Part shown: one piece after another, positions 26,789 through 64,000 of the stretch
Position numbering within the stretch: the first letter of the stretch is position 1
Layout of the letters: every line of letters begins with the position of its first letter
Assembly: GCA_029981855.1 (NCBI GenBank)
Contig: JARRCS010000013.1
Coordinates: 1 to 64,000, forward strand
From: Halanaerobiales bacterium
GTDB taxonomy: Bacteria; Bacillota; Halanaerobiia; Halanaerobiales; DTU029
Direction: 5' to 3'
DNA: 64,000 nucleotides
Notes under the pieces: generated by a model
What the model was told of the DNA's origin: nothing
Databases searched by the model: none
The model's input: only the letters and a program-made list of their open reading frames with translations
Translations under genes and position numbers: made by a program

Positions 26789-27286
26789 CTAGCTGGTAAT
26801 TTTTTCTCGGTCTGTTTCATACCAGAAGGTGTCAGTAATTTTTTTGGTAGCTCCTAAGCCAACGATTACATCATCTGGGTAGGATTTTAAAACGTCCCTG
26901 TTAACTTTTTTCTTGACTATAATACAGTCACTCATTCCCCGTTTTTCCAGCATCTCAATAATTTTATTTTTGATTTTAGAGGGGATGGTCAGCCTGGTTG
27001 ATTTCCTAAAACCTACCTGGCCAAAATTAAGCTTTTTGGATTTGCCTTTAATATCAATACGGTTAAGGGTAACAAACCTCTTTAAGTCTTTCGATAATTG
27101 TTTAATCCTCTTTTGGATGGGCTCGGCTTTATCGCTGTACTCAAGCTTAATATCTGATATTTTTTGGTTCATCTGGTTTTCCAGTTCCTCTTTTCGGAGC
27201 TCAAGTTCAGCAATTTCTTTCATGACCAGATCTGCTTCTTCCCAGTTTTGAATTTTTTCTTCATCTTCCATTCTAACCCTTGCCAT
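26789..27286 (-). CDS. gam: Gam-like host-nuclease inhibitor
   Basis: This 165-residue Ku-like protein of the Mu Gam family protects linear DNA ends from exonucleases. The N-terminal long coiled coil (WEEADLVMKEIAELELRKEELENQMNQKISDIK) is followed by LSKDLKRFVTLNRIDIKGKSKKLNFGQVGFRKSTRLTIPSK, the family hallmark. Late KITDTFWYETDRE is also typical. ATG 27286 is preferred by RBS spacing. Confidence 0.92.
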   Translation of the reverse strand: MARVRMEDEEKIQNWEEADLVMKEIAELELRKEELENQMNQKISDIKLEYSDKAEPIQKRIKQLSKDLKRFVTLNRIDIKGKSKKLNFGQVGFRKSTRLTIPSKIKNKIIEMLEKRGMSDCIIVKKKVNRDVLKSYPDDVIVGLGATKKITDTFWYETDREKITS

Positions 27287-27365
27287 TATCATCATCCTTT
27301 CTATCAGTATTTAGATTTCCCAATCTTTGTAAAGGTTTTAACAACTTTTTGTTGAATTATATACC

Positions 27366-27636: not shown

Positions 27637-27670
27637 ATAAACACCTCCTTTCATAAACTTCTTATAGCCT

Positions 27671-27728
27671 GTCTCATCAGGACGGGTAGGCCACCTCCCG
27701 CCAACAGGGCATAAGGCCCTGTTTCGAC
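27671..27728 (-). ncRNA. Type II hammerhead ribozyme
   Basis: In minus-strand order: GTC (stem II 5' strand), GAAA core, stem III CAGGGC-CUUAU-GCCCUG, UU, stem I GGCGGG...CCCGUC (six pairs including one G-U), core CUGAUGA, then GAC (stem II 3' strand). All invariant core positions are present: C3-UGAUGA9, G12-AAA15.1, U16.1 and H17 (here U). The predicted cut is between 27703 and 27702. Stem II has only three Watson-Crick pairs before weaker pairing. It fills the gap between the TAG of the 51-residue gene and the RBS of the 57-residue gene. Confidence 0.82.
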
Positions 27729-27883
27729 TAATCAGTTGCTGCTACAGACCTTTTTAAATCTTCCATTTGCCGCTCTTCATATATCTGGGCTGCTTCTTCG
27801 GCGATTCGGTGAAGGGTTTCCTCGGATAGACCCGGATAACTTTCTTTCAGATTTTCTTTAACCCGTTCTTTGACATCGTTCAT
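27728..27883 (-). CDS. Small acidic helical protein
   Basis: This 51-residue protein with a GGAGGTG ribosome site upstream is fully helical in appearance (VKERVKENLKESYPGLSEETLHRIAEEAAQIYEERQ). No family is recognised. The last base of its TAG stop is also the first base of the hammerhead stem II, so ribosomes finishing this gene would run into the ribozyme. Confidence 0.75.
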   Translation of the reverse strand: MNDVKERVKENLKESYPGLSEETLHRIAEEAAQIYEERQMEDLKRSVAATD

Positions 27884-28315: not shown

Positions 28316-28463
28316 CAAACCGCCTCCTACGGTTTTGTTTTATCCTATTAAAGAGTTTTGAGATGTAATAGGATAGTTCAATAAGGATATCCCCAACAAT
28401 AACGATGATAATAACAAATATAGTCAGGATTATTAACCCTATCAATTTCAGGTCAAGTTTCAT
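28305..28463 (-). CDS. Small single-pass membrane protein
   Basis: This 52-residue protein has one transmembrane segment (LIGLIILTIFVIIIVIVGDILI, about 7-28) and a basic tail ending KQNRRRRFDGK. Its ATG overlaps the MuB stop (TAATG), and its 3' end overlaps the next gene by 11 bases, both signs of translational coupling. Function is unknown. Confidence 0.75.
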   Translation of the reverse strand: MKLDLKLIGLIILTIFVIIIVIVGDILIELSYYISKLFNRIKQNRRRRFDGK

Positions 28464-29434
28464 TATTCTCCTTCCAGCATACGTTCGGCGGCATATAAAT
28501 AATCGATTGTTACCTGAGCATTTTTTTTATAGGCAAAGGTCATGGCCAGAATTAAATGTTTAACCATATATCTAAAACCGCCAGGACCGTTGGCTTTTTC
28601 ATATAGGAAATTGATGACCTCTTGATCAGGGTCCGTCACGTTTTGTTCTACGATCATCCGGACATCATTTTTTGATTTTTTCCCGGTGATCCTTCTATGG
28701 ATACCTATCCGGGAAAAGAGTTGAGCAAATTCAGCTATTCTGCCATGACCCATCTGGTCGAGCACTAAAGGATTGCCCGCCAGGATAATTGGTGTTTTCG
28801 TTGCATCATGAATGGCCTGCAGGGTGTGGAGAGATGAGGGTGTTAGATGCTGAGCTTCATCAATAATAAACATCTTTCCACTGTCCTTTAAAGCCTTGAT
28901 AACCGCTCTTTGTTTGGCAGCCATGGTTCCTGCTTCCTGTTTATTAAGTACTTCAAGCATTTCATCAAGTAAGGCAATTGGGGCCTTAGTTGCCGGGCTA
29001 ATACTGATGTATTCCACTCCCGGATTTTCGCTGGCAAACTTCTTCATAGTAATGGTTTTGCCGATGCCAGGGTCACCCACTATAGCGCCCATGTCATTAT
29101 TGATTAAAGCAAAGTTTAGGACTGTCATGATTTCAGATGCCGTCTCGGTCATCACAAATTCTGGCTGTTTGGGGGCTTTTTGCTTTTGTAGATGCAGTTT
29201 TAAATATTTTTTAGCTGTTACATAAACGCCCTCAACATCACCTTTATACTGGTTGTTTAGAAACTGGGAAAGGGTAGAAGGGGAGAACCCTAACTGTCTG
29301 GCTAATTTCGACTGAGAAATTTTGGTTTCATCAATATGTTTTTTTAAAGCCTTCCTGATACTCTCGATCTGCTCTGGACTAATTTCCTGCTTTTCTTCCT
29401 CCACCTGAGGATTAACCATTTTTAAAGCTTCCAT
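28463..29434 (-). CDS. Transposition target protein B (MuB-like ATPase)
   Basis: This 323-residue AAA+ ATPase forms filaments on target DNA and activates MuA. An N-terminal HTH (KISQSKLARQLGFSPSTLSQFLNNQYKGD, about 38-66) precedes the ATPase domain with Walker A VGDPGIGKT (about 117-125) and Walker B MFIIDEAQHL (about 190). FSRIGIHRRI and GGFRYMVKHLILAMTFA follow. It is encoded 23 bp after the transposase, as in Mu. Confidence 0.95.
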   Translation of the reverse strand: MEALKMVNPQVEEEKQEISPEQIESIRKALKKHIDETKISQSKLARQLGFSPSTLSQFLNNQYKGDVEGVYVTAKKYLKLHLQKQKAPKQPEFVMTETASEIMTVLNFALINNDMGAIVGDPGIGKTITMKKFASENPGVEYISISPATKAPIALLDEMLEVLNKQEAGTMAAKQRAVIKALKDSGKMFIIDEAQHLTPSSLHTLQAIHDATKTPIILAGNPLVLDQMGHGRIAEFAQLFSRIGIHRRITGKKSKNDVRMIVEQNVTDPDQEVINFLYEKANGPGGFRYMVKHLILAMTFAYKKNAQVTIDYLYAAERMLEGE

Positions 29435-46017: not shown

Positions 46018-46081
46018 GAAAAAAAGCCCCGGCAAGGGTAAATTCCTTGCAATGTACGAAGGAACTTACCCGCCCAGGCTT
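46018..46081 (-). terminator. Riboswitch-controlled terminator
   Basis: Minus strand: GCCTGGGCGGGTAAGTTCCTT (46080-46060, 5' arm) pairs with AAGGAATTTACCC...GGGGC (46048-46025), followed by seven T residues. The 5' arm includes the conserved 3' end of the PRPP aptamer, so ligand binding and termination are mutually exclusive. Confidence 0.82.
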
Positions 46082-46166
46082 TTATCCCCACGGTGTAGTA
46101 TCACTTAAAGTGAAACCTGCACCACTCGGTCCAGACCTTGATTAAAGCGGAACCCTAGGTGCACTT
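46066..46166 (-). promoter_or_regulatory. PRPP riboswitch aptamer (ykkC subtype 2b)
   Basis: In order on the minus strand: GTGCACCTAGGGTTCCG, TGGACCGAGTGGTGCAGGT, a variable hairpin (TTTCACTTTAAGTGA), ACACCGTGGGGATAAAAGCC, then TGGGCGGGTA. The CTAGGGTTCCG, CCGAG, ACAC and GGGATAAAAGCC blocks are the ykkC signature, and the GGGCGGGTA end matches what I recall of PRPP aptamers rather than guanidine ones. ppGpp (subtype 2a) aptamers are very similar, so the ligand call rests partly on the adjoining guanine aptamer. Confidence 0.82.
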
Positions 46167-46167
46167 C

Positions 46168-46236
46168 CCTCGTAGTCAGGTAGTTTACGGCCACCCGGTA
46201 GAAACTTGTGAACCATATCTTCACAATTATACGAGG
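46168..46236 (-). promoter_or_regulatory. Guanine riboswitch aptamer
   Basis: Minus strand: P1 CCTCGTATAAT, GATATGGTTCACAAGTTTCTACC and CCGTAAACTACCTGACTACGAG fit the purine aptamer with its two kissing loops. The discriminator base in GACTA is C, which selects guanine/hypoxanthine; adenine aptamers have U. It lies directly upstream of the PRPP aptamer, separated by one or two bases. Confidence 0.93.
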
Positions 46237-46255
46237 CTTTCCTTATGTCATTTTT

Positions 46256-46284
46256 ATTATACGTAATAAATGACTAAAAGTCAA
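46256..46284 (-). promoter_or_regulatory. Promoter of the purine permease
   Basis: TTGACT (46284-46279), a 17-bp spacer and TATAAT (46261-46256) lie 20 bp upstream of the guanine aptamer on the minus strand. Confidence 0.8.
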
Positions 46285-46311: not shown

Positions 46312-46992
46312 TTAGATTACTAGCTCTCCAGCAAATTCAACCTTGGTCAGGTCACCCCTGATATAGATTCTCTCGATTCCGATAGGTATCTTATTTAATA
46401 AGACAACCCTCTTGCTGACGATAACATTATCAACATCACTAAAATAACGCTTGATAACCTCTGCCGGCTTCTCCACAGTAATGATATTATTCATAAACTG
46501 CAGGTGATTGATTCCCTTTCTTCCCAGTAAATCATAGATAGACTCAAGATTGTCCAGTCTTTCCTGGTTAATCTCCCTCTCCATAAAGGTAATTAATTCA
46601 TGAACGCAATAGGGCTTTTCATCTACCGATTGTACCTGGTAGATCCTAACCAGTTCATCATCCTGTCTGATCCTCTGGATATCAGGGAACTTATTTTCGT
46701 CAGCAGGTTCGATCCGAACTTTACTGGTCTCAAGATTATTATAACTGTACTCATCCCTTAAAATAACTTTTGCTTGTAAGTCCTGATGCTGATCATTTTC
46801 CAGTCTTTTTTCCATATTTCTGGCATACTTTTCTCTCAACTTCATCAGCGAAATATTTGCCTCTGAGAGAATTGTTCGGACATACCTGGGAGTAGTCTGG
46901 ACATACTCAGCTATGTCGCTAATCTTTAGAAACGGGTCACTCTGAGCAAAATTGATAATCTGCTCTTTTTTGGTTAATTCATCAATTGCCAT
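46312..46992 (-). CDS. UTRA-domain transcription regulator (paralogue 1)
   Basis: This 226-residue protein has an N-terminal HTH unlike ordinary GntR (KEQIINFAQSDPFLKISDIAEYVQTTPRYVRTILSEANISLMKLREKYARNME). The C-terminal ligand domain resembles UTRA (IQRIRQDDELVRIYQVQSVDEKPYCVHELITF, then VEKPAEVIKRYF). It shares the N-terminal pattern with the gene at 47186. Ligand and targets are unknown; the purine permease and opp genes on either side are candidate targets. Confidence 0.8.
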   Translation of the reverse strand: MAIDELTKKEQIINFAQSDPFLKISDIAEYVQTTPRYVRTILSEANISLMKLREKYARNMEKRLENDQHQDLQAKVILRDEYSYNNLETSKVRIEPADENKFPDIQRIRQDDELVRIYQVQSVDEKPYCVHELITFMEREINQERLDNLESIYDLLGRKGINHLQFMNNIITVEKPAEVIKRYFSDVDNVIVSKRVVLLNKIPIGIERIYIRGDLTKVEFAGELVI

Positions 46993-47185: not shown

Positions 47186-47899
47186 CTAATCATTAACACT
47201 TTTACGGTTAATAATCAACCCCTTATTATGTGAAAAAGAGAGAGTAACCTGTTTATAGTTAAAGTAGAGTAACATTAAAGTAATAGTTTGAGAATTAGAT
47301 TCTAGGCTTTGCCTAACCCTGAAGATAGGAGCAAGGGGTGAAATCTTCAATAGACTAGCGATCTGATTGGTTGCTTGCTTAATTTCTAAATCTATACTGG
47401 ATACTTTAATCTCTAAATCTTTTATCGTTTTACAAAGCCTCGAAAATAATTCACTGGCAATCAACCTGTTGTCGCCCAGATCTATCTCCTTTTTTTTCAC
47501 CAGTGCCGTGCTGATACACCAGGGTGTGCCCTTAATAAGATGTAAATAGGACTGGCAAACGTAATCTCTGTTAATGTCACCTGATAAAGCATTAAAATCA
47601 TCGGGGCTGTTAAAGATCATCTCTTCCTTTGCCAAGACCTGATTTTCACTGGCAAAAGGGACACTTATTAAATAATTAAATAATAAATGATCACATAGAT
47701 TGCCATCTCTATTCTCCATTTTACGGGCATACTCTCTTCTAAGCTGCATCAAAGATAGATTGGCTTCTGATAAGATAGTCCGAACATAACGCGGAGTTGT
47801 ATTGGCTAGCTTTGCCAAATCCTCAATCTTAAGAAAGGGATCTTTTCGGGCGTTTTCTAGAATTTTCTCCTTCTTTGTTTTCCATTCAAGATCACTCAT
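47186..47899 (-). CDS. UTRA-domain transcription regulator (paralogue 2)
   Basis: This 237-residue paralogue of the 46312 gene shares KKEKILENARKDPFLKIEDLAKLANTTPRYVRTILSEANLSLMQLRREYARKMENR with it. The C-terminal domain has a UTRA-like pattern (TPWCISTALVKKKEIDLGDN, PLAPIFRVRQSLES) but has diverged. It directly follows the opp operon, so peptide-uptake control is a fair guess. No ligand can be named. Confidence 0.78.
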   Translation of the reverse strand: MSDLEWKTKKEKILENARKDPFLKIEDLAKLANTTPRYVRTILSEANLSLMQLRREYARKMENRDGNLCDHLLFNYLISVPFASENQVLAKEEMIFNSPDDFNALSGDINRDYVCQSYLHLIKGTPWCISTALVKKKEIDLGDNRLIASELFSRLCKTIKDLEIKVSSIDLEIKQATNQIASLLKISPLAPIFRVRQSLESNSQTITLMLLYFNYKQVTLSFSHNKGLIINRKSVND

Positions 47900-62714: not shown

Positions 62715-62810
62715 TTTCACCCTCCATTCCTACTTACTGGAATGAACTTGTCGAAACTAACAAAACATAATTCAAACTTCTGCTAAAAAGTTGATAGCCG
62801 ATAAAGCCCC

Positions 62811-62835
62811 GGTGCACCCCTCTCCGAGGTGCACC
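62811..62835 (-). terminator. Hairpin between binding-protein and permease genes
   Basis: GGTGCACC (62811-62818) and GGTGCACC (62828-62835) are self-complementary and form an 8-bp stem extended by G/C pairs. No T-run follows. It probably stabilises the upstream mRNA or causes partial termination. Confidence 0.55.
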
Positions 62836-62875
62836 AGTATTTGTAGTTTAAAAAGCAATTTTCTTTGGTGTTAAA

Positions 62876-64000
62876 CTACTTGCTCATCTCTTCCTTGATA
62901 TTCTGGTCGATCCACCAGGTGACCAGTTTATCGGCATCATACATCTGGTGATGGAGCTCACCTTTAACCCAGGGTTGTTTGATGGTTACACTGCTGGTAT
63001 GGTAGAGCCAGACATAGGGGTCCCCCTCTTTTCTGACTACATCGATAATCTTCTTGGAGATATTAACCCGGGCCTCAACACTTGTTGTTCTAGCCATCTC
63101 TTCCAGCATCTTATCAACAACTACATTCTTGTAGTTAATCCTACTTCCCTCACTCCCGTACAGAGCTTTCAAGAAGTTATAAGGATCAGCATAATCGGCC
63201 CACCAGGAAAGGTAATAGGCAGGTGCCTCACCCTTCTTGACAGTGGCAAAGAAGACACTCCAGTCATTTTTAACCAGTTTAACATCGATACCGACTCTCT
63301 TTAAGAGGGCCTGAAGTACTCCACCGACACGGACGGACTTTTCACCGGTACTTGTCCAGATCTCCATCTCAAAGCCATCAGGATAACCGGCTTCAGCCAG
63401 CAATTCTTTTGCTTTCTCAGGATCATAACCCAGACCGGGTTTGTCAGAACCGCCGGGCATACCATCAGGAATGGCATCATCAGCCGGAACATAGTTCGGG
63501 AAGAGGGCCTTAACGATCTGTTCACTATCGATAGCCAGGGCAATCGCCTGCTTCACTTTAGGATTGTCCAATGGCTTAAACTTCTGATTTAAAGCCAGAT
63601 AATAGGAAGAAAGCTCGGCCATCTTATGAACATAGGGCTTCCATTTAGGGTCATTAGTCCATCTCTGAATCTCTTCCTGGGGAACACTGGTATAATCCAG
63701 GTTGCCGGCCTCAAACTCGGCAATCCTTGTTAGAGCCTGGGGAATAACCCGGTAGACTACCCTGTCCAGATAGGGTCTTCCCTCCCAGTAATCTTCATTA
63801 GCCTCCAGGACCAGCTTATTATCATGCTCCCATTCCACAAACTTCCAGGGACCTGTCCCTACCGGATGCTGGCTGAACTGTTCTCCCCATTTCTCAACCT
63901 CTTCCTGAGGTACAATCAAACCATAGGGAAGGGTCAGATGGGTCAAAAAGAGACCAAAAGGATATTTCAGGTCAAAACGGACCGTATAATCATCGATAAC
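62876..64000 (-). CDS. Peptide ABC transporter substrate-binding protein, partial
   Basis: This is the C-terminal 374 residues of an SBP family 5 protein; the start lies beyond the window. The frame stays open to base 64000 (VIDDYTVRFDLKYPFGLFLTHL). Features: HPVGTGPWKFVEWEHDNKLVLEANEDYWEGRPYLDRVVYRVI, LDNPKVKQAIALAIDSEQIVK, and LSWWADYADPYNFLKALYGS. It would feed the DppBC-like permeases downstream. Confidence 0.95.
   Translation of the reverse strand, partial: VIDDYTVRFDLKYPFGLFLTHLTLPYGLIVPQEEVEKWGEQFSQHPVGTGPWKFVEWEHDNKLVLEANEDYWEGRPYLDRVVYRVIPQALTRIAEFEAGNLDYTSVPQEEIQRWTNDPKWKPYVHKMAELSSYYLALNQKFKPLDNPKVKQAIALAIDSEQIVKALFPNYVPADDAIPDGMPGGSDKPGLGYDPEKAKELLAEAGYPDGFEMEIWTSTGEKSVRVGGVLQALLKRVGIDVKLVKNDWSVFFATVKKGEAPAYYLSWWADYADPYNFLKALYGSEGSRINYKNVVVDKMLEEMARTTSVEARVNISKKIIDVVRKEGDPYVWLYHTSSVTIKQPWVKGELHHQMYDADKLVTWWIDQNIKEEMSK

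Follow-up and report, generated by a model that had tools for sequence, protein, structure and literature searches.

The window, the whole stretch of 64,000 nucleotides analysed here from a Halanaerobiales bacterium, contains on its minus strand a purine permease gene that is preceded by a leader with a promoter, two abutting riboswitch aptamers and an intrinsic terminator (Table 1). The initial annotation had placed this tandem leader, correctly, at 46018-46284. The permease matches PF00860 with an E value of 2.5e-45 and resembles AZG1 (phmmer, E 5.7e-76); it is assigned to the AzgA type by sequence, and its substrate is a prediction, while NCBIfam provides no name for it. A Shine-Dalgarno motif, AGGAGG, lies in front of the gene at 45925-45920. 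The next convincing gene on the same strand, an ORF resembling glycyl-tRNA synthetase, starts 1.7 kb away, and thus the permease gene appears to be on its own. No other AzgA-type permease was found in the genome, whose second PF00860 protein adjoins a PyrR-like gene, and Hpt-like and Apt-like phosphoribosyltransferases, named from sequence, are encoded as well.

Table 1. Features of the permease locus, in window coordinates
Feature	Position	Strand	Basis
Sigma-70-type promoter, TTGACT-17 nt-TATAAT	46256..46284	-	Consensus match, site relative to guanine aptamer
Guanine aptamer core	46168..46236	-	Rfam RF00167, P1 mapping
Nucleotide common to guanine P1 and PRPP P0	46168	-	Pairing coordinates
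PRPP-class ykkC (subtype 2b) aptamer including P0	46061..46168	-	RF00442, diagnostic residues, P0 pairing
Intrinsic terminator, stem 46083-46022, U7 46025-46019	46019..46083	-	Folding
AzgA-type adenine/guanine/hypoxanthine permease, 437 aa	44596..45909	-	PF00860, phmmer to AZG1

Two further observations concern the surroundings. Two paralogous HTH-like proteins (46312-46992 and 47186-47899, minus strand) are encoded in the interval that separates the permease leader from an oligopeptide-type ABC transporter operon; they share an N-terminal motif, and one of them has a weak UTRA match. Elsewhere in the window, a type II hammerhead ribozyme (27663-27729, minus strand; 47.1 bits, cut-off 37) lies between two ORFs, one similar to a Mu-type B ATPase (28463-29434) and one Gam-like (26789-27295), and is probably located inside a transposable prophage.

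The identity of the first aptamer is straightforward. When the complete window was searched with cmscan and Rfam 15, the Purine family (RF00167) was returned at 46254-46153 of the minus strand with 88.3 bits (E 1e-14), the gathering cut-off being 37 bits. The three-way junction has the canonical UAUAAU and GUUUCUACC elements and the conserved junction residues, and P1 is formed by 46236-46230 paired with 46174-46168. As had been proposed, the discriminator within GACUA is a C, which indicates guanine and not adenine as the ligand class. The promoter agrees with the consensus at 11 of 12 positions, and its placement suits a transcript that begins just 5' of the guanine aptamer; the start would lie near 46250. 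The tandem pattern occurs once in the window and in none of 100 shuffled versions, and the leader folds with a z score of -4.7 relative to dinucleotide shuffles.

The second aptamer was also recovered by the covariance-model search that the initial annotation had recommended, albeit under the name Guanidine-I (RF00442; 46169-46069, minus strand, 64.6 bits, E 3.5e-9), 1.6 bits above the gathering cut-off of 63 bits. It should be noted that Rfam groups the ykkC classes under this name, so that the model match does not by itself identify the PRPP class, which is assigned from diagnostic residues. Guanidine-I riboswitches have an A at residue 49, where both the ppGpp and the PRPP class have a pyrimidine; at residue 96, the PRPP class has a G and the ppGpp class another base or none (PMC5912903, PMC6031431). 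In the window, the residue that follows CCGAG is a U (U49), and the second G of CCUGGG is G96. In addition, the CACC motif is present, and the ends of the aptamer can form the P0 helix that belongs to subtype 2b (GGAA, 46168-46165, with UUCC, 46064-46061). One residue deviates: position 104 is an A, at a site where a G, described as highly conserved, contacts the 2'-hydroxyl of PRPP in the crystal structure; the numbering of residues 101-105 was deduced from the description in the paper, and G104 is not the published class discriminator. The assignment to the PRPP class made in the initial annotation is therefore strong, as judged from U49, G96, CACC and P0, though A104 keeps it from being residue-perfect.

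A104 might signal that the PRPP aptamer has decayed and that the leader is a guanine-only off switch, the more so as the window's GTDB-family relatives whose sequence was inspected have G104 and as the bit score exceeds the cut-off so narrowly. However, A104 recurs in 14 of 116 distinct tandems (the window and 13 others), mainly of Sporomusa-type and Brevibacillus genomes, among them entire Sporomusa-type groups whose pur operons are intact, and in the window all other diagnostic residues are preserved, as are P0 and the overlap with the terminator. Many undoubted relatives also score no higher than 50 to 68 bits, since the Rfam model is built around guanidine-I. Decay is thus improbable. That the second aptamer senses ppGpp (subtype 2a), so that the leader would read guanine and the stringent-response alarmone, is a long shot: the consensus sequences of subtypes 2a and 2b are almost identical, a single G96A exchange switches binding from PRPP to ppGpp, and position 104 is unusual, yet G96 is present in the window and in all 92 tandems of a 95-member set that could be read at this position, at which ppGpp aptamers are described with A, C, U or no base. 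Moreover, the genes downstream of the related tandems are purine genes and not genes for branched-chain amino acids or glutamate, and the tandems described for ppGpp aptamers are paired with T boxes. A guanidine-I riboswitch in front of a guanidine-related transporter, as the Rfam name would have it, can practically be dismissed, since residue 49 is U and not A (none of the 91 readable tandems of the 95-member set has the guanidine-class A), position 78 is C and not G, P0 is present but absent from guanidine-I, and the gene encodes an AzgA purine permease. Both the guanidine-I and the ppGpp identity were accordingly rejected on residues 49 and 96.

The two aptamers had been described as two bases apart; they are indeed adjacent, but not separated, since the first nucleotide of P0 is also the last of guanine P1. 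Therefore, both helices cannot form in full and compete. Mutual exclusivity of P0 and P1 has been proposed for the tandem of T. mathranii (Knappenberger et al. 2018, PMC6031431). In the ligand-free in silico fold of the window leader, guanine P1 is favoured over a forced P0 by about 3 kcal/mol. The terminator stem (-36.9 kcal/mol) is followed by seven U, and its 5' arm includes the 3' strands of P3 and P0, which bears out the earlier proposal that the 3' end of the PRPP aptamer supplies this arm. The leader thus agrees with the architecture of an IMPLY gate, for which 5 to 7 nt between the P1 stems and one shared terminator that overlaps the PRPP aptamer are characteristic.

We infer from the sequence that the window tandem binds both ligands, that termination responds to them and what physiological purpose this would serve; the switching steps are modelled on the anatomy of the leader and on experiments with other class members. 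Binding of guanine would lock guanine P1, so that P0 of the PRPP aptamer could not form fully, and the 3' strands of P0 and P3 would be released into the terminator, turning the permease off. Binding of PRPP would hold P0 and P3, sequester the 5' arm of the terminator and open guanine P1, and the permease would be on despite guanine. The same scheme has been put forward for the T. mathranii tandem (PMC6031431). Import would then track the ratio of PRPP to guanine, which together are the substrates of guanine phosphoribosyltransferase. The opposing logic put forward in the initial annotation, guanine off and PRPP on, agrees with the sequence, with the relatives and with the published criteria. 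Taken together, we assign a probability of about 0.87 to the reading that a tandem guanine-PRPP riboswitch of the IMPLY-gate architecture controls, at the level of transcription, a stand-alone purine-base permease of the AzgA type.

Two additional pairings were considered and discarded. The 5' leader segment AAGGAA, upstream of guanine P1, pairs with the 3' strand of P0 in the minimum-energy fold that precedes synthesis of the terminator arm, but the pairing is absent in relatives. An extension of the P0 3' strand deeper into guanine P1 is present and had the look of a new mechanism, but no covariation beyond that of shuffles was found for it, and the exclusivity of P0 and P1 is a proposal of earlier work (PMC6031431).

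The comparison with relatives made use of the 95 tandems mentioned above, i.e. 94 from 84,980 species genomes and that of the window. GACTA and CTAGGG lie 14-16 nt apart in every one of the 95, whereas the search pattern would have accepted 8-26 nt. The P0 core is paired in all 90 distinct relatives with a spacing of 14 or 15 nt, and compensatory changes yield covariation at two of its four pairs; P0 is GGAA/UUCC in the window lineage and mostly GAAA/UUUC in other tandems. In several tandems (L111, L125, L110, L123, L124, L146 and L141), the discriminator strand of the guanine aptamer deviates from GACTA and reads GGCTA, GAACTA or CCTA, and these guanine sensors are possibly altered or decayed; L110 also has a G at residue 49. 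Tandems were also found in genome bins of Ktedonobacterales/Chloroflexi (L005, L025, L047, L054, L065 and L076), mostly 5' of AzgA permeases; the class was described in Firmicutes.

The genes downstream of the tandems place the permease in a wider context. The initial annotation had set the uptake permease against the purine genes described for such tandems. The permease as such is confirmed, but it is the commonest first gene of the scan: AzgA is the first recognisable gene in 46 of the 83 tandems with readable downstream DNA, followed by xpt, usually with pbuX (18/83), purE (9/83), purL (4/83), purD (2/83), MTA phosphorylase with a Bmp-type lipoprotein (2/83), purK (1/83) and codB (1/83), all shares being approximate, and that of the de novo genes probably underestimated, because of the motif bias of the scan. 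The scan of the 84,980 species genomes depended on exact CTAGGG..CCG and GACTA motifs and, as a consequence, misses a second tandem in the window's own genome, upstream of purD; the codA tandem of B. megaterium is not among its matches either. At 33 of the 46 permease-first loci, purE, purK or purL follows within 3 kb. In an even sample of the phylum, the tandem was present in 33 of 398 genomes, a reversed control pattern had no match in the same 398, and the first genes at 30 of the 33 were AzgA (14), purE (6), purD (5), MTAP (3), Bmp (1) and purB (1). At some loci (L133, 2513-3508 minus; L019, L090, L150-L152 and L156), the tandem precedes genes for Bmp-type ABC substrate-binding proteins, in some cases together with an MTA phosphorylase gene, and the output would seem to be nucleoside import and salvage.

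The purD tandem (L002, 1602-1330 minus; G000:C1, about 62750-63024) precedes an operon that also contains homologues of purE, purB, purC, purQ, purL, purF, purM, purN and purH. The ykkC half of this tandem shows degeneration at CUAGGUUCCCG and an inserted stretch, and therefore reaches only 22.9 bits and is missed by Rfam. At least four relatives of the same GTDB family (G002, G005, G006 and G007) likewise have one tandem at the purD operon and a separate one at the permease; in G006 the contig ends before the permease gene, and the gate is letter-identical to those of G005 and G007 at the sites read. The same pair is present in G001, where both the guanine aptamer and residue 49 of the permease copy are deviant. 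RNA logic gates with two inputs are rare, and two copies of one gate, at a purine synthesis operon and at a separate permease, offer a clean test of its purpose.

Guanine-PRPP tandems have already been published as IMPLY gates (Sherlock et al. 2018, PMC5912903; codA of B. megaterium), with 127 known examples in that study and 192 in a 2022 review (PMC9481103), and experiments have been published for members from B. megaterium and T. mathranii (PMC5912903, PMC6031431). In the parts of the literature consulted, the gene associations described are those with de novo purine synthesis as far as IMP and with codA (PMC5912903, PMC7266159, PMC9481103). Two of these class descriptions proved to mention no permease and one no xpt, and a literature search retrieved no paper that combines a PRPP riboswitch with a permease or deals with a permease output, although supplementary gene lists may include permeases. 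Permease output turns out to be common in the tandem family and little discussed. In the published description, uptake and salvage seem to be given too little weight, and the downstream genes counted here suggest that the physiological role of the family has been drawn too narrowly. One explanation might be that the gate mainly controls how purines are acquired, whether by uptake and phosphoribosyl salvage or, to no greater extent, by de novo synthesis, and does so by reading the substrate ratio of guanine phosphoribosyltransferase, a proposal to which we give even odds. If it is true, the published rationale, the supply of AMP in the stringent response, which was based on de novo-only associations, would need revision. 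Gates at stand-alone permeases would separate a reading in terms of acquisition from one in terms of AMP in the stringent response.

The window tandem resembles the tandem of Sherlock et al. (PMC5912903) in the order and abutment of the aptamers, in the class-diagnostic residues and in the single terminator that overlaps the PRPP aptamer, and differs in its output, a stand-alone purine permease in place of the de novo genes and codA seen in the parts of that literature consulted. With the tandem of T. mathranii (PMC6031431; structure 6CK5) it shares the mutually exclusive P0 and guanine P1 as well as G96, in contrast to position 104, which is an A in the window. By its sequence, it is a real and well-preserved guanine-PRPP riboswitch of an already known architecture. 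In the G-box regulon of B. subtilis, singlet guanine riboswitches are found on purine permease genes. In both systems guanine would be an off signal for purine import, but in the window the PRPP sensor could override it.
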